64,000 nucleotides of DNA from Clostridia bacterium. GTDB taxonomy: Bacteria; Bacillota; DSM-521; Neomoorellales; SLTJ01. Each line of letters opens with the position of its first letter. Position 1 is the first letter of the stretch. Below the pieces are notes generated by a model that did not search any database, was not told where the DNA came from, and was given only the letters and a program-made list of their open reading frames with translations. The DNA lies in the NCBI GenBank assembly GCA_024653205.1, contig JANLFO010000001.1:124001-188000 (forward strand), in the 5' to 3' direction. Position numbers and translations under genes: made by a program. Shown piece after piece: positions 26,480 to 44,635 of this stretch.

Positions 26480-26498
26480 TCACGGAGGGGAGACAGAG

Positions 26499-27518: not shown

Positions 27519-27522
27519 ACCC

Positions 27523-28062
27523 ATGAGCATTGCCTGGGGGATTACCGGCGCGGGACATTTTCTCCGGGAGTGCGCGGAGCTTCTCCGTTCGCTGAAGGAA
27601 GTGGACGTATTCGTTACCGAGGCAGGGTATCAGGTGCTCAGGAGTTACGGGCTCCTCCAGACGATCCAGGAGGCGGCGCGCCGGTTCTACCGGGACGATC
27701 GGAACGGTAACCGGGCGGTAGGCCGCCTGTACACCTCGATCTACCGCCTGGTGGTGATCGCCCCGGCCACCTCCAACTCGGTGGCCAAGATGGCCTGCGG
27801 GATATCCGATACGGTGGTCACCAACCTTTTCGCCCATGCGGGCAAGTGCCGGATACCGCTGGTAGTGCTTCCCACCGATACGACAGGGGAGGTAGTCTCC
27901 GAAGCTCCGGGCCGAAGGCGGGTGGTGGCTTTTCCCCGTCCGATAGATCTGGAAAACGCGGAGCGCCTTTCGTCCTGGCCGGGGGTGACGGTGGTCCGCA
28001 GTACTGAAGAACTCGGGGACCGGCTTCGGGCTTGGGTCAGGGATAGCGGTCGGGCCGGCTAG
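27523..28062 (+). CDS. Archaeal-type flavoprotein (AfpA/DmrB-like) of the H4MPT cluster
   Basis: A 179-residue protein of the HFCD (flavoprotein) superfamily: WGITGAGHFLRECAELLR binds FMN phosphate, and VVIAPATSNSVAKMACGISD is the family's P-A-T-x-N-x-x-A segment. Homologues in methanogens and methylotrophs include dihydromethanopterin reductases that convert H2MPT to H4MPT. That role fits here, because the cluster otherwise lacks a reductase for the last pterin step. The gene starts 5 nt after mptG. Confidence 0.75.
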   Translation: MSIAWGITGAGHFLRECAELLRSLKEVDVFVTEAGYQVLRSYGLLQTIQEAARRFYRDDRNGNRAVGRLYTSIYRLVVIAPATSNSVAKMACGISDTVVTNLFAHAGKCRIPLVVLPTDTTGEVVSEAPGRRRVVAFPRPIDLENAERLSSWPGVTVVRSTEELGDRLRAWVRDSGRAG

Positions 28063-28072
28063 GGGGTGCAGG

Positions 28073-29443: not shown

Positions 29444-30057
29444 TCCGGGAGACCATAGTGTCCAGCGCGGACGCGGCGGGAAACCCCAACTTTGCCCCGA
29501 TGGGGGTGGTCGTGGAGGAGGCAGACATCGGGCGCGGGGCGGAAATAGGGCTCCGGGTGTACCGGGGGTCGCGAACCGGGGCCAACCTTCTGGAAGTGCG
29601 ACAGGGGGTAGTCAATCTCGTCGACGACGTGCTGCTCTACGTAACCACGGCCCTCTTCGACGCCCTACCGGAATGGGAACCGTCGTTCGCGGTGCGTCCG
29701 CCGGGGATGAGAGGCGCGCCGGGGCGGTGGGAATTCGTTGTAGTGGCGGCGGAGGAGGAGGTGCGGCGGGGAGCAAGGGTTGACCGGGTTACCGGCCGGG
29801 TGGTCCACACTGTGGGCGGCCACGGCGGGTTCAAGGGCTTTTGCCGGGCCCAGTGGGCGGTGCTGGAGGCCACGATAGCCGCTACCCGGGTGGGTTATGT
29901 GGGACCGGAGGTTCTGGCCTGCTGGGACTACTGGCAGAGGCTGGTGGAAAGGACCGGCGGTCCCCGGGAGAAGACGGCCTTCCGCCTGGTACGTGACTAT
30001 CTTGAGGCGCGGGGCCTCAGACCTCCGGTGCCGCCGGCGGGACGGGCGGGTTCGTGA
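29440..30057 (+). CDS. DUF447-family flavin-binding-barrel protein
   Basis: A 205-residue protein starting GTG, overlapping the previous stop. IRETIVSSADAAGNPNFAPM and EIGLRVYRGSRTGANLL match DUF447, a split-barrel FMN-binding-like family of methanogens and H4MPT-using bacteria. It is conserved in these clusters, and mutants in methylotrophs suggest a role in H4MPT synthesis, but no reaction is known to me. The C-terminal ~80 residues are helical. Confidence 0.75.
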   Translation: MIRETIVSSADAAGNPNFAPMGVVVEEADIGRGAEIGLRVYRGSRTGANLLEVRQGVVNLVDDVLLYVTTALFDALPEWEPSFAVRPPGMRGAPGRWEFVVVAAEEEVRRGARVDRVTGRVVHTVGGHGGFKGFCRAQWAVLEATIAATRVGYVGPEVLACWDYWQRLVERTGGPREKTAFRLVRDYLEARGLRPPVPPAGRAGS

Positions 30058-30091
30058 TCGGTGAAAGCTTCGGATCGGAGGTGAGGAGACC

Positions 30092-30946
30092 GTGAGACCG
30101 GTCCTGCTGCACCTTGACGTTGACCCCAAGCCTAGCGCGTTCGACCTCATCACCGCCTGTGACGCGGGGGCAGAGGTGGTCCTCCCGTACGGCGGCGTGA
30201 CGCCCGGGGAAGTCGGCGCCCTGGTGTACGGGGCACTGTTCACCCGCAAGGTGTCCCACCTGCGGCATACGGCCATATTCGTTGGCGGTTCTAAAGTGGA
30301 CGAGGCGGAGGAGGTCATGGGGCAGGTTCTCAAGACCTTCTTCGGACCTTTCCGGGTTTCGGTAATGTTCGACGCCAACGGCTGCAACACCACGGCTGCG
30401 GCGGCGGTCAGAAAGATGGCTTCGGCTCTGAAGCTGGAGGGCAGAAGGGTGCTGGTGTTGGCCGGAACCGGGCCGGTGGGGCTCAGGGCGGCGGCGTTGC
30501 TGGCTCGCGAAGGGGCCAGGGTCAGGCTCTCCTCCCGAAGCCCGGATAGAGCCCGGTCCGCGGCCGAAAAGCTTCGGGAGCAGCGAGGCCTGGAGGTGGA
30601 GCCCATCTGTGTCACCGGAGGGGAGGACCTGGAGGCAGCCCTGAACGGAGCAGAAGCAGTACTGGCCTGCGGCGCTGCCGGCGTCAGGCTGGTGCCCGGA
30701 GAGACCTGGGTTTCCCGGCCTGAACTCAAGGTGCTGGCAGATGTGAATGCGGTAGAGCCTTTAGGGATCGAAGGTATCAAGGCCACGGACGACGGTGAGG
30801 AACGGGAAGGCAAGATCGTGTTCGGCGCTCTGGCCATCGGCGGGCTGAAGATGAGGATTCACCATACCGCTTTGGGCAGGCTGTTCGAGGCCAACGACCA
30901 GGTTTTCGACCTGGAGGAGATCTACGAGCTCAGCGGGCACCTATGA
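30092..30946 (+). CDS. mtdB: NAD(P)-dependent methylene-H4MPT dehydrogenase
   Basis: A 284-residue protein starting GTG with GGAGGTGAGGAG upstream. HLDVDPKPSAFDLITACDAG, FTRKVSHLRHTAIFVGGS and FFGPFRVSVMFDANGCNTTA are the substrate-side signature of MtdA/MtdB. The Rossmann half follows with VLVLAGTGPVGLRAAALLAR. It oxidises methylene-H4MPT to methenyl-H4MPT with NAD(P)+, or the reverse. This bacterial type is unrelated to the F420-dependent Mtd of methanogens, so electrons go to a nicotinamide. Confidence 0.9.
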   Translation: MRPVLLHLDVDPKPSAFDLITACDAGAEVVLPYGGVTPGEVGALVYGALFTRKVSHLRHTAIFVGGSKVDEAEEVMGQVLKTFFGPFRVSVMFDANGCNTTAAAAVRKMASALKLEGRRVLVLAGTGPVGLRAAALLAREGARVRLSSRSPDRARSAAEKLREQRGLEVEPICVTGGEDLEAALNGAEAVLACGAAGVRLVPGETWVSRPELKVLADVNAVEPLGIEGIKATDDGEEREGKIVFGALAIGGLKMRIHHTALGRLFEANDQVFDLEEIYELSGHL

Positions 30947-32205
30947 AGAGCCAAGGCACGCTCCTTCTGGTGGGTACCAGTACCCGGGCGCTGGCCGAGT
31001 CGGCGGTCAGGTCGGGTTTTAGCGTAATGGGCTTCGACTTCTTCGCCGATATGGATCAGCAGGCTTTCTGCCCGGTGATTACCCCGGAGCGGCGAGGACG
31101 GAAGTTGACGGTGCCCGCCCTGCTCGAGCTGGCTCAGAACGAGATCCGGTCTGGCGCCGGCAAGGGCGGGGGTATAGGCGGCCTGGTCTTGGCTTCAGGG
31201 CCGGAAAACCACCCGGAGGCGCTGCGGTGGTTCTGGGAGAGAGGGCTGCTGCTGGGTAATTCCCCCGATACCCTGCAGCAGGTTAGGAATCCGTTTCGGC
31301 TGGCCGAGGCCGTCAGGGATACGGGCGTCCGCTTCCCGGAGACCTACCCCTGGGAGCAAGGGCCCCGGCTGCCGGGCGGAGCCAGGAGGTGGCTGGTGAA
31401 GCCGCTTCGGGGCGGCGGCGGTCGAGGGATCCGGCCGCTGCCGCCTGCGGGTCGGTCACGGTCCGGTGCGGTAATCGCCGGCGAGGGGACTTGCGTCATA
31501 CAGGAATTCGTTCCCGGCCTGGCGTGTTCCGCCACCTTCGCGGCCGATGGGAAACGGGCGGTAGTGATCGGAGCCAGTCTCCAGCTCCTGGCCGGCCGGC
31601 CGGAAAGGCCGTTTGGCTACGGCGGCAACATCGTCCCCCTGATCCCTCCCGAAGCCCTAAGACCTCCCTTCTGGAGGGAGAGGCTGGTGGAGGCAACGCG
31701 GGCGCTGACGGCCCGGTTCGGCCTCAGAGGGCTGAATACGGTGGATTTCATCCTCAATGCGGAAGGCATTTGGATTCTTGAAGTAAACCCGAGGTGGTCC
31801 GGCTCGGTGGAGCTGTTCGAGCAATTGAGGGGAAAGCCGCTCTTCCCGCTGCACCTTTCCGCCTGCAGCGGCGAGGGTCTTGGCGACCGGGACGAAAGGG
31901 GCGGCGGGATGGGGTTGGCTTGGGGCCCTGACCTGGCCGGGTGCCCCGGGCCGGCCTGCCGGGGAAAGGCCATACTTTATGCGCCCTACGACTTTAAGGT
32001 GAGCCCGGAATGGCCCTGGGAGCAGCTGTACCGGTGGGGCATGCGGGATATCCCCCAGCCGGGGACCCCGGTGAAGGCGGGACGCCCGGTGTGCACGGTG
32101 CTGGCGGCCGGAGATTCTTGGGCTCACTGCCGGCGGCAGCTGGCCGCCAGGCTGGAGTGGGCGCTGCGGACGCTGGAAGGCAGGAGAATTCAGGCCGTGC
32201 GGTGA
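30943..32205 (+). CDS. ATP-grasp protein of the H4MPT cluster
   Basis: A 420-residue ATP-grasp enzyme overlapping mtdB by 4 nt. WLVKPLRGGGGRGIRPL and FVPGLACSATF are the ATP-binding loops; EGIWILEVNPRWSGSVELFE is the metal-binding end with the E-x-N pair. The C-terminal RGKAILYAPYDFKV segment is typical of the ATP-grasp protein found in methylotroph H4MPT clusters, required for H4MPT synthesis but of unknown reaction. It should form an amide or acyl-phosphate type bond in cofactor assembly. Confidence 0.75.
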   Translation: MKSQGTLLLVGTSTRALAESAVRSGFSVMGFDFFADMDQQAFCPVITPERRGRKLTVPALLELAQNEIRSGAGKGGGIGGLVLASGPENHPEALRWFWERGLLLGNSPDTLQQVRNPFRLAEAVRDTGVRFPETYPWEQGPRLPGGARRWLVKPLRGGGGRGIRPLPPAGRSRSGAVIAGEGTCVIQEFVPGLACSATFAADGKRAVVIGASLQLLAGRPERPFGYGGNIVPLIPPEALRPPFWRERLVEATRALTARFGLRGLNTVDFILNAEGIWILEVNPRWSGSVELFEQLRGKPLFPLHLSACSGEGLGDRDERGGGMGLAWGPDLAGCPGPACRGKAILYAPYDFKVSPEWPWEQLYRWGMRDIPQPGTPVKAGRPVCTVLAAGDSWAHCRRQLAARLEWALRTLEGRRIQAVR

Positions 32206-32214
32206 GGTTGGCGG

Positions 32215-33156
32215 ATGCTGAGACGGGATATCGCGCTGGCGGCCCAGGCCGCCTGCTGTCTGGAGGTGGCCGCGCCCAAGGTAGGCAACGTGAACCGTCA
32301 TCACGACTTTCCCGATTGCACCCTGGAGGACTTCCTTCTGAGCGCGGCGGCCATAGCCTGGGTGCTGGCAAAAATCGAGAGCTGCTCGGTGGGCCGGGCG
32401 GTCCTGGCGTGCGTGGAGGCCACGCGGGCCTGGGTGCCGGTCAACACCAATCTGGGAATCGTGCTCCTGTTCGCCCCTCTGGCGCGGGCCTGGGCAGAGT
32501 GGGCGCCGGGCGAAAGATGTGCCGACCCTTGCCGGATGGGCCTGGAAGTCCCGGAGTCCCTGCGCCGGACCCTGGCCCGGATCCTGACGGATTTGGGACG
32601 GGAAGACGCCGGCCACGTCTACCGGGCCATCCGGCTGGCCTCACCCGGGGGCCTGGGAAAGGCGGACACCCACGATGTTTCCCAGACCGAGCGGCCGGAG
32701 ATTACCCTGCTCGAGGCCATGAAACTGGCGGCCGAGCGCGACCTGGTGGCGGGAGAGTACGCGAACGGCTTCGCCCTGACTCTGGATGAAGCGCTGCCTG
32801 CCCTGGACCGGGCCCTGAGACGGGGACTGCCGTTGCCGGAGGCGGTGGCAGACGCCCACGTCTATCTCTTGGCCCGCGCCGGCGATACCCTGATCGCCCG
32901 GAAGAAAGGACGGGAGGCCTCTGGCGAAGCGTCCCTCCGGGCCCGGGCAGTCGGCGCCGCCGGGGGCTGGGGGACGCCGGCCGGCCGGGAGCAGGCGGCC
33001 GAGCTGGATCGGTGGTTGAGGGGCGGCGGAGGCCTTGGCCTCCTCAATCCGGGGTCCACGGCGGATATCGTCACTGCCGCCCTCTTTCTGGCTTTTCTAC
33101 TTCAGGGGCCCGGCTGGTGGAAGGAAGTACGGCCGGGAAGACGGGGGGTTGCCTAG
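32215..33156 (+). CDS. Triphosphoribosyl-dephospho-CoA synthase-like protein (CitG family)
   Basis: A 313-residue protein with VAAPKVGNVNRHHDFPDCTL at ~18-38 and NTNLGIVLLFAPLARAW at ~78-94, the CitG/MdcB core. There are no citrate lyase or malonate decarboxylase genes nearby. Members of this family sit in H4MPT clusters of methylotrophs and methanogens and are thought to act in cofactor synthesis, perhaps in the ribitol-ribosyl linkage, since CitG builds an alpha-1,2 ribosyl link. Confidence 0.75.
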   Translation: MLRRDIALAAQAACCLEVAAPKVGNVNRHHDFPDCTLEDFLLSAAAIAWVLAKIESCSVGRAVLACVEATRAWVPVNTNLGIVLLFAPLARAWAEWAPGERCADPCRMGLEVPESLRRTLARILTDLGREDAGHVYRAIRLASPGGLGKADTHDVSQTERPEITLLEAMKLAAERDLVAGEYANGFALTLDEALPALDRALRRGLPLPEAVADAHVYLLARAGDTLIARKKGREASGEASLRARAVGAAGGWGTPAGREQAAELDRWLRGGGGLGLLNPGSTADIVTAALFLAFLLQGPGWWKEVRPGRRGVA

Positions 33157-33171
33157 GAGGTGAGAGGAAGG

Positions 33172-33918
33172 TTGCCTGAGACCTCCCGGTCCGAAAAGGC
33201 GTGGCCGTTGCTCCTGGTTAGCGTGGTTTCTGCCCGGGAGGCGCTGGAGGCCCTCCACGGCGGGGCCGACGTGATCGACGTGAAGAATCCGGCCGAGGGC
33301 CCTCTGGGCGCGCCGCAGCCCCGAACGGTGGGCGAGATAATGCAGGCGGTAGCCCGACGAAAACCGGTGAGCCTCGCCCTGGGCGAATATCCCGGCCGGC
33401 CCACCTCGGCCGCCTGGGCGGCCTTGGGTGCCGCCGGCTTCGCTCCGGCTTACTTGAAGATCGGCTTTCCCGGCTGGGTGGAAAAGGAGGAAATCGACCG
33501 CACCCTGAAGCTGGTGGTGCAGGCGGTGGCTGAACTCGGGGGCGAGACACTTCCCCGGGTAGTGGCCGTGGGGTACGCCGACACCACGGGCCGTAGCTGG
33601 CGCCCGGCCGACCTGCCGGGGCTGGCAAAGGAAGCCGGAGCCGCGGGTTGCCTCCTGGACACCTGGGATAAGACGGGCCCTCCTCTGCCTAGAGTGACGG
33701 CCACCGCCGAGCTGGAGGCCTTTGTGGGGACCTGCCGGGCGAACGGCCTCACCAGCGGGCTGGCGGGCAGGCTGGGCGAAGAAGAGGTGGTCGAACTGCT
33801 CGCCCTGTGCCCCACGGTCATCGGGATTCGGTCCGCCGCCTGCGTGGGCGACCGGGTAAACGGGTGCGTCACGGCGGAACGGGTCGGCAGGCTCAAGCGC
33901 CTCCTGCAGCCGAGTTGA
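33172..33918 (+). CDS. mfnB: (5-formylfuran-3-yl)methyl phosphate synthase (methanofuran biosynthesis)
   Basis: TTG at 33172 is preferred because GGAGGTGA lies eight bases before it, giving 248 residues. LLVSVVSAREALEALHGGAD and VIDVKNPAEGPLGAPQP form the MfnB signature with the Schiff-base lysine in V-K-N-P; SLALGEYPG and PAYLKIGFPG follow. The enzyme condenses two glyceraldehyde-3-phosphates into the furan of methanofuran. Its 3' end overlaps by 26 nt the convergent HisA-like gene. Confidence 0.9.
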   Translation: MPETSRSEKAWPLLLVSVVSAREALEALHGGADVIDVKNPAEGPLGAPQPRTVGEIMQAVARRKPVSLALGEYPGRPTSAAWAALGAAGFAPAYLKIGFPGWVEKEEIDRTLKLVVQAVAELGGETLPRVVAVGYADTTGRSWRPADLPGLAKEAGAAGCLLDTWDKTGPPLPRVTATAELEAFVGTCRANGLTSGLAGRLGEEEVVELLALCPTVIGIRSAACVGDRVNGCVTAERVGRLKRLLQPS

Positions 33919-34705
33919 AGGCGGCCAGGTCCTCCACGGTCAGCTTTCCCTGATGAAGCAGGGTGGCCACCAGGGCGCCGGCGGCTCCGGCCTCCTGTAG
34001 CCACCTCAGGTCCTCGAGGCACCGCACCCCGCCGCCGGCGAGAAGACCACCGCCCGGTAACGCCTCTGCTTCCAGGGTCCGGAGACAGAGGGAGACCAGG
34101 TCGCGGTTGATCCCCCGGCCGGTACCCACCCGGTCGATCTCCAGCAGGATTACCGAGGCAACGCCCAGGCGCGCAAGCAGGCGAAGGGCTTCGGTCGGCG
34201 TTAGGAGCTGGAGTTCCGGGGAGCGACTGAGGACCCGGCCCTGCAGGAGGTCGAGGCTTACCACGATCTTTTCCGGTCCCCAGACCCTGACCGCCTTTTC
34301 GAGCTCGCCGAGGTCTGCCAGGGTTTCCGTCCCCATGACCGCCTGGTGGATTCCCAGCGAGAAAAGGCAGGGCAGTTCGCGGTGGGAGGTTACGCCGGCA
34401 TCTACCAGGCAGGTGATCGGCCGGTCTGTCAGGAGTTTCTGCAACAGCTTCAGGTTGGAGGTGGGACGCAGGGGACGGGTCGGCGAGGAACGGGATCCGG
34501 GTTGGATGGGGCCCAGAGCGTCCAGATCGGCCACGTAAAAACGGGAAAGACCGAGTCTTTGGCAGGCGTCCACCACTGCCTCCAGAGTGGGGGAACCGGC
34601 AATGGCGCTGCGTACAGGGCGGTACTGCCGCCGCTTTCCTCCCAGGCCGTGGACCACCACTCCGGACTTCAGGTCGATGGCCGGTATGATCTGAAAAGGC
34701 TTCAT
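33893..34705 (-). CDS. HisA/HisF-related TIM-barrel protein of H4MPT clusters
   Basis: A 270-residue barrel related to HisA: IIPAIDLKSGVVVHGLGGKR at the N-terminus, FYVADLDALG, CLVDAGVTS, LAGGGVRCLEDLRWLQEAGA. It has the phosphate-binding ends of the HisA/HisF barrel, but this branch (TIGR00734 as I recall) occurs with H4MPT and MF genes rather than histidine genes. Its substrate is unknown; a role in cofactor synthesis is inferred. It is the only gene on the minus strand within the cluster, convergent with mfnB and divergent from the next gene. Confidence 0.75.
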   Translation of the reverse strand: MKPFQIIPAIDLKSGVVVHGLGGKRRQYRPVRSAIAGSPTLEAVVDACQRLGLSRFYVADLDALGPIQPGSRSSPTRPLRPTSNLKLLQKLLTDRPITCLVDAGVTSHRELPCLFSLGIHQAVMGTETLADLGELEKAVRVWGPEKIVVSLDLLQGRVLSRSPELQLLTPTEALRLLARLGVASVILLEIDRVGTGRGINRDLVSLCLRTLEAEALPGGGLLAGGGVRCLEDLRWLQEAGAAGALVATLLHQGKLTVEDLAAFNSAAGGA

Positions 34706-34757
34706 GGCTTCCTCCCGTTCGGACGATTCTCCCCTCGTTCTCTATGGTACAGGGAAA

Positions 34758-34792
34758 CTGCCGGCCGGTCAAAGGACAGGTTCGGCCGGCAG
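34758..34792. promoter_or_regulatory. Palindrome in the divergent intergenic region
   Basis: CTGCCGGCCG (34758-34767) and CGGCCGGCAG (34783-34792) are a perfect 10-bp inverted repeat with a 15-bp centre, between the HisA-like gene and the plus-strand gene. It could be an operator shared by both directions or a hairpin at the 5' end of the plus transcript. Confidence 0.45.
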
Positions 34793-34815
34793 CGCACCGG
34801 CTGCCAACCCAGGGG

Positions 34816-35994
34816 GTGGCAGGCCTGATTCTGGGTCTGGACATCGGTGGCGTCAACACCAAGGCCTGTTTCCTGTTTTCCGCTGCCGGAACTCCGGTCG
34901 GGGCAGGGGAGCCCCTGCGGTGCTGCGGGGTGAGCGTGAGCCACCAGGTATTCGCAGACGTGGAGGGTCTGGAGCGGGTCCTCGGGGGCTTGCGGAGTTC
35001 GGCCTCCCTTTTGGTGCCGGAGCAGAGGCTGCAGGCGGTAGGGGTAACCACAACCGCCGAACTCTGTGACGTGTTCGCGAGCCGCGTGGTGGGAGTCAGG
35101 CGGATACTCGAGGCGGTGAGAGCGGCCTTCGAGGGCGTACCGGTGTGGGTCTGGACCCTGGACTGCCGGTTTGAGCAACTCTCGTACGCTTACGACCGTC
35201 CGCTGGCGGCTGCCGCCGCCAACTGGCTGGCCGGGGCACTTGTGATGTCGCGGTGCTGGCCCGGTCCGGGCCCGGCCCTGCTGCTGGACATGGGCAGCAC
35301 CACTACCGATATCGTACCCCTCGTTCCTAACAAGGTGCTGGCGGCCGGATACACGGATCAGCAGCGCCTGGCCTGCGGGGAACTGGTGTACACCGGATTG
35401 CTGAGAACGCCGGTTCAGGACATAGCGGGGCGGGTCTATCTTGACGGCGCATGTTGCCGCACCACGGCAGAGTACTTCACCGTGGCGGGAGACGTCTACC
35501 GCCTTCTGGGGTGGCTGGATGCGGAGCAGTACGGTATCCCGGCGCCGGACAAGAGGTCGCCGGGACCGGTGGACTGCGCCCGCCGGTTGGCCCGGCTGGT
35601 GGCGCAGGACCTGGAAGCGATGGGATGGGAGGAGATCCTGCTGCTGGCCCACCAGGTAAAGGAAAAACACCTGAGCCTGGTACTGGAGGCCATCTGGCAG
35701 GTGCTTTCCAGAAAGGAGATCGCCCGTCTTCTCTTTCGGCCCGACCGTTTGGAGGAGAAAAGAGAGAACTTCCGGGTCTGGCCGGATGGCATCACGCTGA
35801 TACTTGCCGGCCTCGGCGTGCCTTTTCTGGCAGAGGTGGCCAGAAGGCTGGGGGTTGGAGCCCGGCGGTGGTGGGAGCTCGTGCCGGTTGCCGCTGCAAG
35901 CGAGGAATCCGGGGCCGGGGAGCCGGCGGCCCTGACCGCTTTCGCCGTCGCCTGGCTGCTGGCCGACTGCCTACAAGGCGGAGGCCGTAGATAG
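34816..35994 (+). CDS. Hydantoinase/oxoprolinase-like protein of H4MPT-linked C1 clusters
   Basis: About 392 residues of the ASKHA fold: LILGLDIGGVNTKACFLF at the start and LLLDMGSTTTDIVPLVP at ~155-171 are the two phosphate loops; QQRLACGELVYTGLLRTPVQ follows. This branch (one-carbon uncharacterised family, TIGR03123 as I recall) occurs with H4MPT and MF genes; disruption in methylotrophs affects the pathway, but the reaction is unknown. The GTG at 34816 has weak spacing to its ribosome site and a CTG at 34825 is an alternative start. It restarts the plus-strand cluster. Confidence 0.75.
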   Translation: MAGLILGLDIGGVNTKACFLFSAAGTPVGAGEPLRCCGVSVSHQVFADVEGLERVLGGLRSSASLLVPEQRLQAVGVTTTAELCDVFASRVVGVRRILEAVRAAFEGVPVWVWTLDCRFEQLSYAYDRPLAAAAANWLAGALVMSRCWPGPGPALLLDMGSTTTDIVPLVPNKVLAAGYTDQQRLACGELVYTGLLRTPVQDIAGRVYLDGACCRTTAEYFTVAGDVYRLLGWLDAEQYGIPAPDKRSPGPVDCARRLARLVAQDLEAMGWEEILLLAHQVKEKHLSLVLEAIWQVLSRKEIARLLFRPDRLEEKRENFRVWPDGITLILAGLGVPFLAEVARRLGVGARRWWELVPVAAASEESGAGEPAALTAFAVAWLLADCLQGGGRR

Positions 35995-36100
35995 TTCCGG
36001 CTGTGACCCGGTAACCGGCCGTGACCGGAGGTTAAATGCCTCTTGGTCGGGGCCGGTTGACCGAAAAGGCTTGCAGCCGCCGTGGCGGGGAGGGCGGAGT

Positions 36101-36766
36101 ATGGACAACCGTTCGGCCAAACCGCTGGTGAAGATTGGGGGTAGCCTGGTTTACCAACGAGACGGGGAGACTTTAAAGGAGCTCCTTGCCGTTTTGGGGA
36201 AGGCGGCCCGGGAAACCCCGCTACGGCTTGCCCTGGTGCCGGGCGGTGGCCCTTTTGCGGACGGGGTAAGGTACTGGTCGGCCGTGTTGGGATTGGGTCA
36301 GGAAGCAGCTCATTTCATGGCGCTAAAGGCTATGGACCAGTACGGCTACGTTCTGCACCACTTCCTGCCGGGAAGCCGGGTTCTGGAGATCTCCGGGCTT
36401 CGGAGGCCGGGGCAGGCGTTTCCTCCCGGGGTGCCGACGGTACTGTTGTGCGCCTCCTTCATGAGGAAGGTGCCGCCGGAGGAATTGCCGCGTTCTTGGG
36501 AGGCGACCTCCGATTCTGTAGCCGCCTACCTGGCGCGCCGCCTCGGGGCCGACCGCCTGGTGCTGGTAAAACCGGGATGTCCTTCGGCGATCCCGCCGGC
36601 CGAACTGGTAGATCCGTGTTTCCCGGAGCTGGTGCCGCCGGGGACAGACGCGTGGGTGGTGCAGGGGACGGATCCGGAGCTGGTGCTCAGGGCGGTTCTG
36701 GGGCAGGCCGAGGAAGGCCGGGGAGCGGTCAGGTGCCCTCCGGGGGGAAGAGGGGCAGCATGGTAG
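36101..36766 (+). CDS. mfnE: Amino-acid-kinase-fold methanofuran biosynthesis kinase (MfnE)
   Basis: A 221-residue protein; GGGGAGGGCGGAG precedes the ATG. KPLVKIGGSLVYQRDGETLK and LALVPGGGPFADGVR are the amino-acid-kinase phosphate loops; WEATSDSVAAYLARRLGADR and LVLVKPGC complete the nucleotide site. MfnE phosphorylates the aminomethyl-furanmethanol phosphate made downstream of MfnB to the diphosphate that is joined to tyramine. Its 3' end overlaps the next gene by 7 nt. Confidence 0.85.
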   Translation: MDNRSAKPLVKIGGSLVYQRDGETLKELLAVLGKAARETPLRLALVPGGGPFADGVRYWSAVLGLGQEAAHFMALKAMDQYGYVLHHFLPGSRVLEISGLRRPGQAFPPGVPTVLLCASFMRKVPPEELPRSWEATSDSVAAYLARRLGADRLVLVKPGCPSAIPPAELVDPCFPELVPPGTDAWVVQGTDPELVLRAVLGQAEEGRGAVRCPPGGRGAAW

Positions 36767-37794
36767 TCTTCGCCTACGAGTGGTTTTGTGCCCGTGGGGA
36801 AGTCGGAGCCGGGAACGGGGCCCTGGGCCGAGAGGGGTATGCAATGCTGGCGAGCCTAATCGGCGAGTTCCTAGAGATCCCGGAGGTGGAAGTGTTGACC
36901 GTTCTCCGGGAGGATCTGGTGCCACTTTTCCCCGCCGACCACCCTCGTCTGCAGATTCGGTGTTCCGGTTCCCCGCGGGCCTTTGCGGATTGTCTGTCCG
37001 GCTGCGAGGCGGTGGTGCTGATTGCCCCGGAAACCGGAAGGAGGCTCGAGGAACTGACCTCCCTGGCGGAACGGGAGAGGAAACCGGTGCTCGGGAGCAC
37101 GTCTCTGGGCGTTCGAAAGGCGGCGGACAAGGCAGCTGCCGCCGGCCTCTTGAGCCGACGGGGAATACCCGTGCCCGGAGGCCGTTCTTTTCCCTTGCGG
37201 GCGGTGCGGGAAGTGGCCGGTTCCTTGTGCTATCCGGTGGTGGTCAAGCCGCTGGACGGGGCCGGGACCACGGCCACGTTCCTGGTCCGGGACGGTGCCC
37301 GGCTGCGTGAGGCGGTGGAACAAATTGAAGCCGCTTCCGCCGTCTCCGCCTTCCTGGTCCAGGACTACGTGCCGGGAGAGGCGGTGAGCGTGAGCCTGCT
37401 GGTGTTGCCCGGCACGGGTCGTTGCCTGGCATTGAGCCTGAACAGGCAATTGGTGTACCTGGACGAGCGGGGAGTTTTCCGGTACCGGGGGGTTAGCGTG
37501 CCCTATGCCCATCCCCAGGCCCAGAAGGCACTCTCTCTGGCCGCCCGCGTGCCGGCGGCCCTTCCCGGCCTGGCCGGGTACGTGGGGGTGGACATGGTTC
37601 TCGGCCCGGCCGGCCCGGTGGTGCTGGAGGTCAATCCCCGCATAACCGACTCCTGGGTGGCTTTGGCCAGGGTGAGCAAGACCAACCTGGCGGCGGCGTT
37701 GCTGGACGCCTGTCTGCGCCTGCGGCTGCCCGAAGACTGGGCCGTAGAGGGGCAGGCCGAATTCCGCCTGGCCGAAAATCCCAACGGGAGGTGA
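36760..37794 (+). CDS. mfnD: ATP-grasp ligase, MfnD-like (tyramine-glutamate ligase type)
   Basis: A 344-residue ATP-grasp enzyme. VVFAYEWFCARGE at the N-terminus with LGREGYAMLASLIGEF is the family start; CYPVVVKPLDGAGTTATFLV is the ATP loop and GPVVLEVNPRITDSW the metal site. In methanogens this family attaches glutamate to tyramine for methanofuran. The assignment to that reaction is inferred from N-terminal pattern and from the position between mfnE and fwdD; other ATP-grasp proteins in the cluster could take this role. Confidence 0.65.
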   Translation: MVVFAYEWFCARGEVGAGNGALGREGYAMLASLIGEFLEIPEVEVLTVLREDLVPLFPADHPRLQIRCSGSPRAFADCLSGCEAVVLIAPETGRRLEELTSLAERERKPVLGSTSLGVRKAADKAAAAGLLSRRGIPVPGGRSFPLRAVREVAGSLCYPVVVKPLDGAGTTATFLVRDGARLREAVEQIEAASAVSAFLVQDYVPGEAVSVSLLVLPGTGRCLALSLNRQLVYLDERGVFRYRGVSVPYAHPQAQKALSLAARVPAALPGLAGYVGVDMVLGPAGPVVLEVNPRITDSWVALARVSKTNLAAALLDACLRLRLPEDWAVEGQAEFRLAENPNGR

Positions 37795-37800
37795 TCGCTT

Positions 37801-38145
37801 CTGACTACGGTTTTCGGAACCCTGATCACCGTACGGAGTCTGAAGCAGGGCGTATCCGTAGCCCGGGGCAAGCAAGCGCCCGAGTACCAGGAAACGGTAG
37901 CGGTATTGGAAATGGCGCGGGAGGACATGGGCCGACTGGGCATCGCGCCGGGCGGGAGGGTCCGGGTGCGGAGCCTTCACGGAGAGATCGTTGTCGCCTG
38001 CAGGGAAGCAGATCTCCCCGGCGGCCTGTTCTGCCTGGCCATGGGCCCGGTGGCCAACCGGCTGGTGGATCCGGATACCGGGGGTTCGGGAATGCCTGCT
38101 TTCAAGAGTACGGCGGTGAGTGTGGAGCCGTGCACGGGAGAGTGA
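37801..38145 (+). CDS. fwdD: Formylmethanofuran dehydrogenase subunit D (molybdopterin-binding)
   Basis: GGAGGTGA lies six bases before a CTG at 37801, giving 115 residues: VFGTLITVRSLKQGVSVARG, KQAPEYQETVAVLEM, then LGIAPGGRVRVRSLHGEIVV. The first ATG (37906) would remove the conserved A-R-G-K segment, so a CTG start is likely. This is the beta-barrel that covers the tungsto- or molybdopterin guanine dinucleotide in archaeal Fwd. The Fhc complex of methylotrophic proteobacteria lacks it. The gene sits 5 bp before fwdB. Confidence 0.85.
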   Translation: MTTVFGTLITVRSLKQGVSVARGKQAPEYQETVAVLEMAREDMGRLGIAPGGRVRVRSLHGEIVVACREADLPGGLFCLAMGPVANRLVDPDTGGSGMPAFKSTAVSVEPCTGE

Positions 38146-38150
38146 GGGGC

Positions 38151-39440
38151 GTGGTCGTCGGCGACGTGGTCTGTACCTTTTGCGGAAGCCTTTGCGACGA
38201 TCTCGAAGTGGAGCTGGAGGGCGGGAGCATACGGGGGGTGAGACGGGCCTGCGCCGTTGGCCGGGCCAAGTTTCTGGCCGCCCGGGACACGGCCTCCCCG
38301 TCGATAAACGGGCAGCCGGCTTCCCCGGAGGCGGCCCTGGAGGAGGCGGCCCGGCTGCTCTTGCGGGCCGGCTATCCGCTGATCTACGGCCTGAGCACGA
38401 TCCCGGCCGAGGCGCAGAAGGAGGCCATAGCCCTGGCCGAGCTGCTGGGGGCCAATATCGACAGCACTTCCTCTCACTGTCACGGCCCCTCCACCATGGC
38501 CCGGCAACAGACCGGACTCCCCACGTGCAGCCTGGGCGAGGCGAAGAACCGGGCCGATCTGGTGGTCTTCTGGGGGAGCAATCCGGCCGAATCCAGCCCC
38601 AGGCATTTCGTCCGCTATTCCGTCGGCGCCAGGGGACTGCTGACGCCCCAAGGGAGAAAGGACCGAACCGTGGTGGTAGTGGACGTGAGGCCCACGGCTA
38701 CGGCGCGGCTGGCAGACGAGTTCCTGCAGATTGCCCCGGGGCAGGACTACGAGGCCCTGACCGTACTGCGGGCCCTGGTCAAGGGGGTGGCGGTGGAGGG
38801 GCGGCACCCGGCGGGGGTGCCCGTAGAGAGGTGGGCCCGACTGGCGGAGCTAATGAAGAAATGCCGGTACGGCGCGGTCTTCTTCGGCATGGGGTTGACC
38901 ATGAGCCGGGGAAGGGAGGCCAACCTGGAGTTGCTGTTGACGCTGGTAAAGGAACTCAACGCCTACACCAGGTTCCACGCCCTGCCGATGCGGGGACACG
39001 GCAACGTGGCCGGGAGCGAGAACGTGCTGGCCTGGCAGACCGGTTTTCCGTTCGGGGTGAATTTCAGTGCCGGATACCCGCGGTTCAATCCCGGCGAGTT
39101 TACCGCCGTGGACCTTCTGGCCCGCGGGGAGGTCGACGCCTGTCTGGTAATAGGCGCCGATCCGGCAGCCCACCTTCCCGGGACGTGCGTTCGGCACCTG
39201 GCCTCCATTCCGGTAATCGTGATCGATCCTCACCCCAACCTAACGGCTTCCCTCGCCCGGGTAACCATCCCGGTAGCCCCGGCCGGGGTAGCCGCGGCGG
39301 GCACTTTTTACCGGATGGACAACGTTCCCCTACGGGCAAAGAAGCTCGTGGATCTGGGCCTTCCCTCGGACGAAGAAGTCTTGAGACGATTAAGGGAGAG
39401 GATCGCCCGTGCTGAGGATCGCCAACGGTCTCATTATTGA
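38151..39440 (+). CDS. fwdB: Formylmethanofuran dehydrogenase subunit B (Mo/W catalytic)
   Basis: GTG at 38151 gives 429 residues, normal for FwdB. The N-terminal cysteines C8, C11, C15 and C34 (VVCTFCGSLCDD … RRACAVG) form the [4Fe-4S] site, and C110 in SSHCHGPSTMARQQTG is at the position of the Cys or Sec that ligates W or Mo in archaeal enzymes. Proteobacterial FhcB has lost these features, so this subunit should be redox-active: CO2 + MF to formyl-MF, or the reverse, with ferredoxin-like carriers. No carrier gene is adjacent. The 3' end overlaps fwdA by 32 nt. Confidence 0.9.
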   Translation: MVVGDVVCTFCGSLCDDLEVELEGGSIRGVRRACAVGRAKFLAARDTASPSINGQPASPEAALEEAARLLLRAGYPLIYGLSTIPAEAQKEAIALAELLGANIDSTSSHCHGPSTMARQQTGLPTCSLGEAKNRADLVVFWGSNPAESSPRHFVRYSVGARGLLTPQGRKDRTVVVVDVRPTATARLADEFLQIAPGQDYEALTVLRALVKGVAVEGRHPAGVPVERWARLAELMKKCRYGAVFFGMGLTMSRGREANLELLLTLVKELNAYTRFHALPMRGHGNVAGSENVLAWQTGFPFGVNFSAGYPRFNPGEFTAVDLLARGEVDACLVIGADPAAHLPGTCVRHLASIPVIVIDPHPNLTASLARVTIPVAPAGVAAAGTFYRMDNVPLRAKKLVDLGLPSDEEVLRRLRERIARAEDRQRSHY

Positions 39441-41034
39441 CCCCGCCAACGGGCCGAGTGGCCGGGTAGGAGACCTGTTTATCGAAGGGGGCAAGATTGT
39501 CCCCCCGCCTTCCCCGGACCGGCGGTGCGAGGTTCTGGACGCTACCGGTCTGATCGTAACCCCGGGAGCGGTGGAAATCCATAGCCATATCGCCGGCCCG
39601 AAGGTAACCTCGGGCCGCATCCTGCTGCCCGAGGACCACTACGCGCACCCGGTCAGGCGGAGGCGGGACTTCCGGTCCGGTACCGGCCGCACGGTTCCCA
39701 GCATCTTCGTAACCGGCTACCGCTACGCCGGCCTGGGCTACACCACCGTGTTTGAGGCCAGCGTGCCGCCTCTTAAGGCCAGGCACGTCCACGAAGAGCT
39801 GGCCGATCTCCCCCTGGTGGACAAGGGCTGCTACGTCCTCATGGGCAACAACTACTTCGTCATGAAGGCCATCAAGACCGGGGACAGGGGCCTGCTGAAA
39901 GAGTTGGTAGGCTGGTTGCTTCGGGCGGCCGGCGGATACGCCGTAAAGGTGGTCAACCCGGGAGGGGTGGAGAACTGGAAGTGGGGCCGGGGAGCGGTTA
40001 CCCTGGACACGCCGGTTCCTCCCTTCGAGATCACTCCCAGGGATATCCTGCTGGCTCTCGTGGAAGTCGCCGAAGATCTGGGCCTGCCGCACCCGGTGCA
40101 CATTCACGCCAACGACATCGGCCGGGCGGGGAATGTGACGACCACGCTGGAAACCATGCGGGCTCTGGCCGGGAGGCGGGCACACTTCGCCCACCTCCAG
40201 TTTCACTCCTATGACGTCAACAAGAAAGGACGGTTTCGTTCCGGGGCGGCCTCGGTGGCCGAGTTCCTGAACGAACACCCGGAGTTCACGGCGGACGTAG
40301 GGCAGGTAATGTTCGGGCCGGCCGCCACCATGACCGCCGATTCCCCCCTGGAGTACAGTCTCTATCGCCTGACCGGGGGCAAGTGGGGCAGCTGCGATCT
40401 GGAGCTGGAAACCGGCTCCGGCGTGGTACCCATGGTCTACCGCCGGAACGCTCTCGTCAACGCCGTGCAGTGGGCCGTGGGGCTGGAGCTTCTTCTCCTG
40501 GTCAACCCCTGGCAGATGTTCCTGACCACCGACCATCCCAACGGCGCTCCCTTCCACGTCTACCCGGAAATAATCAGGCTGCTTATGGATCCGGACTACC
40601 GGCGGTCGGAACTGGAGCGCCTGCCGGCCGGGGTGCGCCGGCTGACCCAACTGGCGTCCCTGGATCGGGCCTACAGCCTGGAGGAGGTGGTAATCACTAC
40701 CCGGGCGGGACCGGCCAGGGCTCTGGGCCTCAAGGGCAAAGGGCATCTGGGGGTGGGGGCAGATGCGGATGTGGTCCTCTACCGGAAGCAGGAGGACGTG
40801 GCGGCCATGTTCTCGCGGCCGGTCTACGTCTTCAAGAGAGGCCGGCTGGTGGTCAGGGAAGGCGAGCCGGTGGCGGACGCCGAGGGCAAGACGCTGGGGG
40901 TCGAGTTCAGAAGCGACTACCGGTTTCCTTCCGCTTTTCGCCAGGAGTTTGCGAGCTACTACAGCATTTCTCCGGCCAACTACCCGGTGGAGGACGACTA
41001 CTTTCGCCTGCGGGAGGTGGTAGTTTGTTCCTGA
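39409..41034 (+). CDS. fwdA: Formylmethanofuran dehydrogenase subunit A (amidohydrolase)
   Basis: A 541-residue protein starting GTG with GGGAGAGG seven bases before. Binuclear zinc amidohydrolase signature: EIHSHIAG (H58, H60), the carboxylated-lysine segment GGYAVKVVNPGG, VHIHANDIG, FAHLQFHSY and TTDHPNGAPFH. It interconverts formate and formyl-MF; in archaeal Fwd, formate made at the FwdB site travels through a tunnel to this site. All metal ligands appear present. It overlaps ftr by 10 nt. Confidence 0.92.
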   Translation: MLRIANGLIIDPANGPSGRVGDLFIEGGKIVPPPSPDRRCEVLDATGLIVTPGAVEIHSHIAGPKVTSGRILLPEDHYAHPVRRRRDFRSGTGRTVPSIFVTGYRYAGLGYTTVFEASVPPLKARHVHEELADLPLVDKGCYVLMGNNYFVMKAIKTGDRGLLKELVGWLLRAAGGYAVKVVNPGGVENWKWGRGAVTLDTPVPPFEITPRDILLALVEVAEDLGLPHPVHIHANDIGRAGNVTTTLETMRALAGRRAHFAHLQFHSYDVNKKGRFRSGAASVAEFLNEHPEFTADVGQVMFGPAATMTADSPLEYSLYRLTGGKWGSCDLELETGSGVVPMVYRRNALVNAVQWAVGLELLLLVNPWQMFLTTDHPNGAPFHVYPEIIRLLMDPDYRRSELERLPAGVRRLTQLASLDRAYSLEEVVITTRAGPARALGLKGKGHLGVGADADVVLYRKQEDVAAMFSRPVYVFKRGRLVVREGEPVADAEGKTLGVEFRSDYRFPSAFRQEFASYYSISPANYPVEDDYFRLREVVVCS

Positions 41035-41912
41035 ACGGGGTAGAAATCGAGGACACTTTTGCCGAGGCCTTCTCCATGTACGCGGCCCGGGTTACCATTA
41101 CCGCCGTTAGCGAACAATGGGCCCGGAAGGCCGCGGCTGCGGCCACCGGCTTTGCCACCTCGGTAATCGGCTGCGGCATCGAGGCGGGGGTGGAGGGGCC
41201 GGCTTCGGATACCCCCGACGGACGGCCCGGCGTGGACTGCCTCTTCTTCGCACCTCGCCGGGAAGACCTGGAGAAGCACCTCCTGCTGCGTATCGGCCAG
41301 GCGGTGATGACCGCTCCCACCACGGCTTGCTTTGACGGGCTGAGCAAGGAGCCGAACAGGGTAAACGTGGGCGGCAGGCTCCGCTTTTTTGGAGACGGCT
41401 TTCAGGCCAGCAAGGTGATAGGCGGACGCCGCTTCTGGCGCATCCCGGTCATGGAAGGCGAGTTTCTGGTAGACGAGGAATTCGGGGTGGTCAGAGGAGT
41501 CGGCGGCGGCAATTTCATCCTCATGGCCCGCTCGGTGGAGACGGCCCTGGAGGCGGCGGAGGCGGCGGTGGCAGCCCTAACCCCGGTGCGGGGCGTGATC
41601 GCTCCTTTTCCCGGCGGCATTGTGCGAAGCGGCAGCAAGGTGGGGTCCAGGTACAAGTTCCTCAGCGCCTCCACCAACGAGCGGCTCTGCCCCACCCTCA
41701 GGGGAAGAGTGGAACTGACGCTGGTGCCCAAGGAGGCGAACGCCGTGCTGGAGATCGTGCTCGACGGCCTGTCGCTGGAGGCGGTGCTGGAGGCCATGCG
41801 CCTCGGTATAACCGCAGCCTGTCGCGAAGGGGTGGTAAGGATAACCGCCGGCAACTACGGCGGGAAGCTGGGCAAGTATCAAATTCGCCTGCGGGACGTG
41901 ATGGAACAATGA
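41025..41912 (+). CDS. ftr: Formyl-MF:H4MPT formyltransferase
   Basis: TTG at 41025, after GGGAGGTGG, gives 295 residues. FLNGVEIEDTFAEAFSMYAA, then ARVTITAVSEQWARKAA and SVIGCGIEAGVEGP match Ftr (called FhcD in methylotrophs). It moves the formyl group between methanofuran and H4MPT. The open frame extends further upstream inside fwdA but that part is out-of-frame noise. Placed between fwdA and fwdC, it follows the bacterial habit of embedding ftr among the dehydrogenase genes. Confidence 0.92.
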   Translation: MFLNGVEIEDTFAEAFSMYAARVTITAVSEQWARKAAAAATGFATSVIGCGIEAGVEGPASDTPDGRPGVDCLFFAPRREDLEKHLLLRIGQAVMTAPTTACFDGLSKEPNRVNVGGRLRFFGDGFQASKVIGGRRFWRIPVMEGEFLVDEEFGVVRGVGGGNFILMARSVETALEAAEAAVAALTPVRGVIAPFPGGIVRSGSKVGSRYKFLSASTNERLCPTLRGRVELTLVPKEANAVLEIVLDGLSLEAVLEAMRLGITAACREGVVRITAGNYGGKLGKYQIRLRDVMEQ

Positions 41913-42766
41913 GGGCCGAGGTCCGGTGGCGGCCGCCGGAAGATTATCGCCGGCCGACGGTGCTGCGCCTGCGGGAAGCCCCCCCGGTACCGGTGGAAGC
42001 CGGGATTATCATGCCGTCCAACCTGTGCGGCAAGAGCCGGCGCGAGATAGAGGAGTTGCGGTTCCTGGTTGGAAACCGGGAGGAGCCGCTGGGAAGGTAC
42101 TTTGCGGTGGAAGCGGGAGAAGATGCGGCCTTGCGGGTTGAGGGCGATCTGAGCCGCTTCAAGCGTGTGGGCGCGGGAATGGACGGCGGCCTGCTCCACG
42201 TCGTCGGCCCGGTAGGGCCCCACGCCGGGGCCCAAATGCGTTCGGGGCTTCTGGTGGTGGAAGGGACGGCGGGAGACTGGCTGGGCGCTCATCTGGAAGG
42301 CGGCAAGATCGTGGTGCTCGGCGATGCCGGGCACCGGGCGGGAGCGGCCTATTGCGGCTATGCCACCGGAATGAAAGGCGGACTGATAATCATTTCCGGC
42401 CGGGCCGGACAGATGGTGGGGGCGCGCATGCGCCGGGGCATCATTGCCGTGGGCGGTGGAGCCCTGGATTTCGCCGGCTACGGCATGAGGGGCGGCACGC
42501 TCCTGGTCTGCGGGGAAGCCGGGGAACGGGTTGGGGCCACCATGAGGCGGGGAACCGCGATACTCTTTTCGCCCTGCGAATTGCTGCCGACGTTCCGGTA
42601 CGGCGGCCTTTTTACCCCGCTTTTCTGGCTGGTCCTGAAGAATTACCTGGATAGGGAGGGCTTCCGGCTGCCGGAGGAGGCGGTCCGGAGCGGGTTTCAC
42701 CGGTTCACCGGCGATCACAACGAGCTGGGGAAAGGAGAAGTCTTGATATGGGCGGGCACGAACTGA
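41909..42766 (+). CDS. fwdC: Formylmethanofuran dehydrogenase subunit C
   Basis: A 285-residue protein starting at ATG overlapping the ftr stop. It carries a run of G-x-x-G-x-x-x-G repeats (VGAGMDGGLLHVVGPVGPHA, MKGGLIIISGRAGQMVG, MRGGTLLVCGEAGERVG), the right-handed beta-helix also found in glutamate synthase. FwdC organises the complex and holds FwdA and FwdB together. It overlaps mch by 19 nt. Confidence 0.92.
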   Translation: MRAEVRWRPPEDYRRPTVLRLREAPPVPVEAGIIMPSNLCGKSRREIEELRFLVGNREEPLGRYFAVEAGEDAALRVEGDLSRFKRVGAGMDGGLLHVVGPVGPHAGAQMRSGLLVVEGTAGDWLGAHLEGGKIVVLGDAGHRAGAAYCGYATGMKGGLIIISGRAGQMVGARMRRGIIAVGGGALDFAGYGMRGGTLLVCGEAGERVGATMRRGTAILFSPCELLPTFRYGGLFTPLFWLVLKNYLDREGFRLPEEAVRSGFHRFTGDHNELGKGEVLIWAGTN

Positions 42767-43719
42767 GCCTGAACGGGCGGGCGGCAGCCTTGGTGCAGGA
42801 GATGCTCGCCCGCCGCCGGGAACTCCGCATCTCGGCTGCCGAAGTGGCCGGAGCCACAGTTGTCGACTGCGGCGTGCAGGCTCCGGGCGGTTGGGAAGCC
42901 GGGCTCTATTTTGCCCGGATCTGTCTGGCCGATCTGGCCTGTGTCGCCCTTCTGCCGGGGGAATTCGGGGGAAAGGTTTGGCCGGCGGTAATGGTGGCCA
43001 CGGATCACCCGGCACTGGCCTGCCTGGGAAGCCAGTATGCCGGCTGGTCTCTCCGCCGCGACGGGTACGGGGCTATGGGTTCCGGTCCGGCCCGCCTTCT
43101 GGCCCGGGCAGAGGAGTTGGTCGGGCGCCTGGGTTACGGGGAGCAGGCCGACTGCGCCGTCCTGGCCCTGGAGGCGGGTCAACTGCCTTCCCCGGCGGTA
43201 ATCGAGTACGTCGCGGAGAAGTGCGGGGTTCCCCCTTCTGGTTTATACGTGCTGGTGGCGCCCACCGCCTCCCCGGTGGGATCGGTGCAGGTGGCGGCCC
43301 GGATGGTGGAAACCGGGCTCCACAAGATGCTGGCCGTGGATTACGACCCCAGGCGGGTGGTACGCGCCTGGGGTACCTGCGTGGTGCCGCCCGTCGCGGC
43401 CGACGATACCGAGGCGCTCGGACGCACGAACGATGCGGTGCTTTACGGTTCCACAGTATGCTACACGGTAGACGACGGGGACGAGGCTCTGGAGAGGCTG
43501 GCCAGGGAGCTTCCTTCACGGGCCTCGCGGGACTGGGGAAAGCCTTTCGGCGAGTTGTGGCGGCAGTACGGGGACTTCTACGCCATCGATCCGCACCTGT
43601 TCAGCCCCGCCGAGGTATGCCTTTCCAGCCCGGTGAGCGGACGAACCTTTCGCGCCGGAAGCAGGCGGGCAGACCTCCTGGCCCGGTCCTTTGCCCTGAC
43701 CGAGATCCAGGGGGAGTGA
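42748..43719 (+). CDS. mch: Methenyl-H4MPT cyclohydrolase
   Basis: A 323-residue protein; ATG inside the end of fwdC with GGGGAAAGGAGAAG upstream. VVDCGVQAPGGWEAGLYFAR, SGPARLL, PSGLYVLVAPTASPVGSVQV and KMLAVDYDPRRVV are Mch signatures. It converts methenyl-H4MPT to N5-formyl-H4MPT, linking MtdB to Ftr. With MtdB, Ftr and Fwd it completes the path between methylene-H4MPT and CO2. Confidence 0.92.
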   Translation: MGGHELSLNGRAAALVQEMLARRRELRISAAEVAGATVVDCGVQAPGGWEAGLYFARICLADLACVALLPGEFGGKVWPAVMVATDHPALACLGSQYAGWSLRRDGYGAMGSGPARLLARAEELVGRLGYGEQADCAVLALEAGQLPSPAVIEYVAEKCGVPPSGLYVLVAPTASPVGSVQVAARMVETGLHKMLAVDYDPRRVVRAWGTCVVPPVAADDTEALGRTNDAVLYGSTVCYTVDDGDEALERLARELPSRASRDWGKPFGELWRQYGDFYAIDPHLFSPAEVCLSSPVSGRTFRAGSRRADLLARSFALTEIQGE

Positions 43720-43729: not shown

Positions 43730-44635
43730 ATGGAACGTCCACGGGTGGGAATTCTCGCCGGCAGGAACAGCCGCGAGGCCGGGCTGTTGGAGGAAGCCCT
43801 GCGGCGTGAGGAAGCAACGGTCTGCCGTCTCTCCCCCAGGGGGTTCGTCAGCCGGGTGGCGGCGGGGACAGGGGGCTTCGTTTGCCGGGTAGAAGACCTC
43901 TCGGGTGTCGCCCTCCACGAACTCGACGCTCTGGTAGTGCGATCGCTGCCCGGGGGCTCCCTGGAGCAGGTAGTCTACCGGCTGGACGTCCTGCACCAGC
44001 TTGAGGGCGACGGAGTACTGGTGGTGAACCGGCCCGCAGTCCTGGAGAAGACGGTGGACAAGTTTTTCACCACCTTTCACCTGGCCGGGCACGGCCTGCC
44101 GGTACCCGCCACCGTGGTGGTGGAGCGTTTCGACCAGGCCATGTCCGCCTTCGAGGCCATGGGCCGGGCAGTCCTGAAACCCCTTTTCGGTTCGCGGGGG
44201 GTGGGGATGGTGCTGCTGGAAGACCCAGACATTGCTTACCGGGTCTTCCGCTCTCTGGAACTGGGTCGCTACGTGTACTACCTCCAGCAGTTTCTCGGCC
44301 ACCACAAAGAGGATCTGCGGGTCTTCGTGCTGGGAGGAGCGGTCCTGGCCGCCATGCGCAGGTGTTCGGCGTCCTGGAAGAGCAACCTGGCCTGCGGCGG
44401 GTGGCCGGAGCCGGCGGATCTCGACCCGCGGCTGGCGGCGTTGGCCGTGGATACGGCCCGGGTGCTGGGCGCGGACTATCTGGGAGTTGACCTGGCCGTA
44501 GTAGAGGGTAGCCCGTACGTGATCGAAGCCAACGGGATTCCGGGTTGGGTAGGACTCCAATCCGTGGCGGAGCCGGATATTGCCCGGGCTATTGCCGGGC
44601 ATGTTCTGGCAAGAATCGGGGGGCGGAAAAGGTGA
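43730..44635 (+). CDS. RimK-type ATP-grasp glutamate ligase of the H4MPT cluster
   Basis: A 301-residue ATP-grasp protein 10 bp after mch. RVGILAGRNSREAGLLEEAL at the start, MGRAVLKPLFGSRGVGMVLL as ATP loop, LGADYLGVDLAV and PYVIEANGIPGW at the metal end. Homologues near H4MPT genes are alpha-L-glutamate ligases such as MptN, which adds glutamate to H4MPT. It might instead lengthen the glutamate tail of methanofuran; the sequence does not separate these. Confidence 0.78.
   Translation: MERPRVGILAGRNSREAGLLEEALRREEATVCRLSPRGFVSRVAAGTGGFVCRVEDLSGVALHELDALVVRSLPGGSLEQVVYRLDVLHQLEGDGVLVVNRPAVLEKTVDKFFTTFHLAGHGLPVPATVVVERFDQAMSAFEAMGRAVLKPLFGSRGVGMVLLEDPDIAYRVFRSLELGRYVYYLQQFLGHHKEDLRVFVLGGAVLAAMRRCSASWKSNLACGGWPEPADLDPRLAALAVDTARVLGADYLGVDLAVVEGSPYVIEANGIPGWVGLQSVAEPDIARAIAGHVLARIGGRKR

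Follow-up and report, generated by a model that had tools for sequence, protein, structure and literature searches.

A probable redox-type formylmethanofuran dehydrogenase operon with a predicted intact metal site in a Clostridia bacterium

The window analysed here, 64,000 nucleotides of a Clostridia bacterium genome (positions 124,001 to 188,000 of contig JANLFO010000001.1, assembly GCA_024653205.1), carries the operon fwdD-fwdB-fwdA-ftr-fwdC at 37801-42766. These five genes very probably encode a redox-active, archaeal-type formylmethanofuran dehydrogenase (Fwd) and its formyltransferase (Ftr), with oxidation of one-carbon (C1) units as the likelier direction. The subunits, the metal ligand, the cluster cysteines and the gene set are read from the sequence, and from these we infer the cofactor, the activity, its direction, the electron acceptor and the source of the C1 units. 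The coordinates of all features are collected in Table 1.

The five frames are intact and overlap or are tightly packed, and homology runs their full length; a pseudogene or frameshift on the one hand, and a chance motif on the other, were therefore dropped as explanations. The ftr gene lies between fwdA and fwdC, as in the operons of Fhc, the metal-free complex of aerobic methylotrophs, and mch followed by an mptN-like gene stands directly 3′ of fwdC. The first-pass annotation had placed a separate FwdD subunit just before fwdB. Its product indeed matches the solved FwdD chains 2ki8, 8rja, 5t5i, 9sfi and 7bkb (phmmer against PDB; E values of 1e-19 to 5e-14), while NF042908, a strict archaeal FwdD model, scores it at 79.5 bits, which is below cutoff. 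No ATG, GTG or TTG start covers the N-terminus of fwdD, the first in-frame one being at codon 36; translation likely begins at the CTG at 37801, 9 nt after GGAGG.

Read from the GTG at 38142, FwdB possesses cysteines C11, C14, C18 and C37 for a [4Fe-4S] cluster and the predicted Mo/W ligand C113 in the motif SSHCHGPS. These are the residues earlier listed as 8, 11, 15, 34 and 110, a numbering which is right if counted from 38151. C113 aligns with SVCHGPS of 5t5i_B (Methanothermobacter; 397.8 bits) and 8rja_B (Ethanoperedens; 433.1 bits) using phmmer, and thus does fall on the metal-ligand position of the solved enzymes. Across the Fwd relatives this position is Cys or TGA, with the exception of one AGA; in Fhc it is replaced. 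The proposed structure-based alignment was also made: an AlphaFold2 model of FwdB superimposes on Methanothermobacter FwdB (5t61_H) with a Z-score of 42.6 (407-408 residues, rmsd 5.4), compared with 27.9 over 334 residues for Methylorubrum FhcB. Since the predicted local distance difference test (pLDDT) score is low at residues 112-129, the active-site loop, the ligand itself was placed by sequence alignment. On this evidence the predicted Mo/W site of FwdB is intact.

As a control on conservation we took the 77 columns showing at least 95% invariance across 61 archaeal FwdB sequences. Of these the window FwdB keeps 73 and 11 other bacterial Fwd keep 70-73, against 32-42 in the FhcB of four Fhc loci (L092-L095, from plasmid records). 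The equivalent count for FwdA is 93/103 in the window and 81-86/103 in Fhc. The two counts show that the loss of constraint is specific to FhcB, whereas the window FwdB has retained it. In the four Fhc loci different residues occupy the ligand position, and no match to FwdD was found.

Could the complex nevertheless be an Fhc-like hydrolase with a vestigial metal site, releasing formate? The A, B, C and Ftr subunits and the order B-A-ftr-C, with ftr inside the operon, are shared with Fhc (6s6y and the four loci), and genes for an electron module were not found nearby in the window. FhcB, however, lacks the ligand and many FwdB positions, and Fhc has no fwdD, whereas the window has kept the ligand, the Fe-S cysteines, the invariant columns and fwdD; in addition, relatives carry a probable selenocysteine at the ligand. 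Such a hydrolase is very improbable. The distinction from Fhc drawn in the first-pass annotation holds: because the ligand Cys, the Fe-S cysteines, the invariant columns and FwdD are all present, a redox-type Fwd is well supported as the predicted identity of the complex.

Five bacterial FwdB genes have an in-frame TGA at the ligand codon, with full-length homology on both sides. They belong to Moorella sulfitireducens, Desulfosporosinus lacus, Gracilibacter, Solidesulfovibrio magneticus and a genome (G011) of the host's order, which shares its genus code with M. sulfitireducens. A selB match above cutoff is present in each of the five genomes, and a hairpin of the type GGGCGUUNUCGCCC can form just 3′ of the TGA codon. 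Dinucleotide-shuffle z-scores of this hairpin were weak (-0.7 to -1.9), and a synonymous-recoding control was added for this reason. In each of the five copies the hairpin is stronger than most synonymous recodings (P 0.014-0.042); the window's own fwdB, with its Cys codon, has no such hairpin (P 0.65). Low scores in this test are not confined to TGA copies, since they occur in some Cys relatives too (e.g. L018, L090), and a stretch of one TGA locus scanned with Rfam had no match to a selenocysteine insertion sequence (SECIS). We conclude that these five relatives probably have selenocysteine as the predicted metal ligand of FwdB. The selenocysteine-containing FwdB described from methanogens (PMC13188914) has the motif UHxP at the ligand, as the TGA codons would give; those enzymes are archaeal, and the window FwdB has Cys. 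The reviews to which our reading was confined describe this form for methanogenic archaea only, or name no bacteria. In the FwdB of Desulfosporosinus SbF1, a metagenome-assembled genome (MAG), the ligand codon is AGA (Arg; L012:597-599) and the downstream hairpin is kept, reflecting either a real loss or an assembly error.

In the likely working of the complex, Ftr would transfer formyl groups between tetrahydromethanopterin (H4MPT) and methanofuran, and FwdA would hydrolyse formylmethanofuran to formate. The formate would then move within the complex to FwdB-FwdD and be interconverted with CO2 at a Mo- or W-bis(pyranopterin) bound by Cys113, the [4Fe-4S] cluster of FwdB passing electrons to an external carrier, probably ferredoxin. 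Ferredoxin is a plausible acceptor in view of this cluster and of the formylmethanofuran/CO2 potential of -530 mV; the best-scoring solved relative, 8rja, runs in the CO2-forming direction (PMC11493965). Together, MtdB, Mch, Ftr and Fwd would make up the segment from methylene-H4MPT to CO2, with C1 units possibly supplied by the DUF2193-channel module described below.

The host genome (98.8% complete) has AcsB and the formyl-tetrahydrofolate ligase FTHFS, and models for Fae and Mer have no match in it. From this combination, the H4MPT set appears to be a line of its own from methylene to CO2, running alongside a Wood-Ljungdahl pathway of the folate type. For the same reasons, Mer being the link from methylene-H4MPT to the methyl level, we consider with moderate confidence that net C1 oxidation to CO2, with release of low-potential electrons, is likelier than CO2 fixation. 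Several observations weigh against an oxidative redox enzyme. No open reading frame of the window contains even one CxxCxxCxxxC motif, and no FwdF-type polyferredoxin is encoded there; nor was a FwdF relative found by searching the genome, though none of the genomes covered by that search provided a positive control. FwdF is not universal among Fwd/Fmd enzymes (PMC11493965). FwdD retains 14 of 19 archaeal-conserved positions, and thermodynamics by itself permits CO2 reduction by reduced ferredoxin.

The reverse use, in which CO2 would pass via formylmethanofuran to methylene-H4MPT as a second, ATP-independent C1 entry, would be in keeping with the intact metal site, with the way archaeal Fwd works and with AcsB in the host. 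We consider it unlikely: formyl entry is already provided by FTHFS, no Mer match occurs in any of ten Fwd-bearing bacterial genomes, and the cluster is patchy in the host's order, where most relatives are without it. Of the role first assigned to the complex, redox chemistry thus stands as the best reading of the sequence, and CO2 fixation becomes the weaker option.

One scan of GTDB genomes yielded 80 loci. Bacterial loci come from Moorella, Desulfosporosinus, Gracilibacter, Peptococcaceae, Synergistaceae, Acetomicrobium, Solidesulfovibrio, Pseudodesulfovibrio, a Clostridia MAG and a Planctomycetaceae MAG; the remainder are archaeal. FwdB was found in 12 of 398 genomes sampled from the host phylum and in 2 of 60 near relatives of the host; a scan of viral contigs with FwdB gave no relative. 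The core order fwdDBA-ftr-fwdC also occurs in Hadesarchaea and some Bathyarchaeota. A similar island order is seen in L013-L016, the four Firmicutes loci of sufficient length, running from the Afp flavoprotein through mtdB, fwdDBA-ftr-fwdC, mch and mptN to the methanofuran genes. The Planctomycetaceae contig (L017) has redox-type fwdD, fwdB, fwdA and fwdC, and the FwdA tree places it with Solidesulfovibrio; mis-binning is possible.

In trees of FwdA and of concatenated FwdA-Ftr-FwdC, the window lies inside a bacterial clade (support 100/99 and 100/100, respectively), and a 100/100 branch separates the archaea from all bacterial rows. A grouping of Fhc with bacterial Fwd, and with it their common ancestry, is favoured but not established: a placement of Fhc with archaea is not rejected by the approximately unbiased (AU) test (p 0.175 and 0.079).

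This type of enzyme has precedents in other anaerobic bacteria. Merino and colleagues (2020; PMC7325909) reported fwdDBA-ftr-fwdC with the catalytic Cys in Hakuba actinobacteria and drew the same redox inference; that operon shares with the window the gene order, the [4Fe-4S] N-terminus, the catalytic Cys and the lack of fwdE/F/G. Its authors reported seeing no H4MPT-biosynthesis genes, whereas the window has such genes next to the operon, together with mch and mtdB. The presence of fwdD in Firmicutes and Synergistetes had been pointed out by Chistoserdova in 2016 (PMC5020050), the Acetomicrobium genome paper lists formylmethanofuran dehydrogenase genes, and a survey from 2023 put the number of bacterial FwdB representatives at 149. 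With bacterial Fwd that have fwdD and the catalytic Cys already published (PMC7325909, PMC5020050, PMC10100899), the operon is less of a surprise than it first appeared. The archaeal tungsten Fwd (5t5i, 8rja) shares FwdA-D, the ligand Cys and the cluster cysteines (FwdB 44-48% identical by structural alignment); it differs in that FwdF, FwdG and FwdI were not found near the window operon, ftr is inside it, and the host is a bacterium. What the present analysis adds is the probable selenocysteine at the FwdB ligand in relatives, the adjoining cofactor genes with Mch and MtdB, and the DUF2193 module.

The cofactor genes flank the operon. The order of the H4MPT-type genes matches that in the Moorella, Desulfosporosinus, Gracilibacter and Peptococcaceae loci, the CitG-like gene excepted. 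Farther upstream of the C1 cluster, at 10938-16989, are polysaccharide synthesis-type genes (CpsB/CapC, Wzy_C, Wzz and a ParA-like ATPase).

Table 1. Features of the operon, its surroundings and the TGA-bearing relatives (window coordinates unless a locus is named)
Feature	Position	Strand	Evidence or remark
Sigma-54 activator, GAF and PAS domains	21728..23839	+	PF00158; conserved upstream of DUF2193
DUF2193 protein, candidate C1-entry enzyme	24007..25488	+	PF09959, 825.8 bits
MIP-family channel paired with DUF2193	25510..26400	+	PF00230
H4MPT biosynthesis-type genes	26436..33156	+	Six genes; order shared with relatives except for the CitG-like gene; starts: GHMP kinase (RFAP synthase-like) 26436, Afp flavoprotein 27523, DHPS-like 28073, DUF447 29440, ATP-grasp 30943, CitG-like 32215
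mtdB-type methylene-H4MPT dehydrogenase	30092..30946	+	PF09176 Mpt_N, 100.8 bits
Methanofuran biosynthesis-type genes	33160..37794	+	Mostly below NCBIfam cutoffs, TIGR03123 above; starts: mfnB 33160, mfnF-like 34744, mfnE-like 36071, mfnD-like ATP-grasp 36760
HisA-like	33893-34705	-	Within the methanofuran-type stretch
fwdD	37801..38145	+	MGD (molybdopterin guanine dinucleotide)-binding C-terminal-type subunit; CTG start after GGGAGGTGAT
fwdB	38142..39440	+	Mo/W catalytic subunit; TIGR03129, 536.5 bits (cutoff 327.8)
FwdB [4Fe-4S] cysteines C11, C14, C18, C37	38172..38252	+	CCCC in all relatives covering them
Predicted Mo/W ligand codon TGT (C113)	38478..38480	+	Aligned with SVCHGPS of solved Fwd
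fwdA	39409..41034	+	Amidohydrolase-type subunit; TIGR03121, 684 bits, above cutoff; PDB alignments
ftr/fhcD, formylmethanofuran:H4MPT formyltransferase	41025..41912	+	TIGR03119, 409.2 bits, above cutoff; start approximate
fwdC	41909..42766	+	TIGR03122, 224.1 bits, above cutoff
mch, methenyl-H4MPT cyclohydrolase	42748..43719	+	TIGR03120, 367.7 bits, above cutoff
mptN-like ATP-grasp ligase	43730..44635	+	NF040720, 214.8 bits, below cutoff 350
TGA and hairpin region, L006	9337-9393	-	
TGA and hairpin region, L013, L014, L015	10319-10375		
TGA and hairpin region, L020	10322-10378		

Upstream of the H4MPT-type genes is a module composed of a sigma-54 activator, a DUF2193 protein and a MIP-family channel. 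The identity of DUF2193 to its counterparts in the closest fwd loci is 73-82%, higher than that of FwdB. In a set of 61 genomes (the host and its relatives) its distribution coincides with that of FwdB, three genomes having both and the others neither, and in the host phylum it was found in 10 of 398 genomes, seven of them with FwdB (hypergeometric P 3e-10, uncorrected for ancestry). DUF2193 has no PDB relative by sequence profile and no Foldseek match at E <= 0.001; its best VIA Z of 4.8 is uninformative on function, and the one paper in the literature searched that names it assigns it no function. The sigma-54 promoter pattern gave one match with one mismatch, at 21611, and no above-chance signal; upstream of DUF2193 there is no consistent sigma-54 site.

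The DUF2193-MIP pair is also present in Methanoculleus and a Thermofilaceae MAG (L106:7105-9626, L110:124-2401). In an ANME-2 MAG (L111:3598-6145) a gene of the luciferase family (PF00296), which includes Mer, adjoins DUF2193. In S. magneticus (L108:1481-7121) DUF2193 has mtdB on one side and, on the other, two genes similar to nfnA and nfnB, for the two NfnAB subunits; this arrangement suggests coupling of the ferredoxin and NAD(P)H pools.

Our hypothesis is that DUF2193 feeds C1 units into the H4MPT-Fwd pathway. More speculatively, with chances that we would put at somewhat less than even, scattered anaerobes may possess an undescribed catabolic pathway in which a small neutral substrate enters through the MIP channel, DUF2193 hands a C1 unit from it over to H4MPT, and oxidation by MtdB, Mch, Ftr and a Fwd with Cys or Sec yields CO2 and low-potential electrons. 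A sub-case of the oxidative reading is that the redox Fwd serves mainly in formaldehyde detoxification and not in growth. MtdB, Mch, Ftr and Fwd do constitute a formaldehyde-oxidation line, and a regulator and a channel adjoin the cluster; the lack of a Fae match in the host genome and the strongly conserved DUF2193 protein, which this role leaves unexplained, make it rather doubtful.

If the complex is truly redox-active, a Wood-Ljungdahl bacterium could exchange CO2 and methanofuran-bound formyl units at no cost in ATP, and very low-potential electrons would be gained from C1 oxidation. Bacterial operons with an intact FwdB-FwdD pair and an Fhc-like order are also the natural comparison for the origin of the metal-free Fhc of aerobic methylotrophs. 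Cultured hosts, namely M. sulfitireducens, D. lacus and Acetomicrobium hydrogeniformans, make both points testable. Should the selenocysteine copies be what they seem, the range of Sec-FwdB would widen from archaea to include bacteria.

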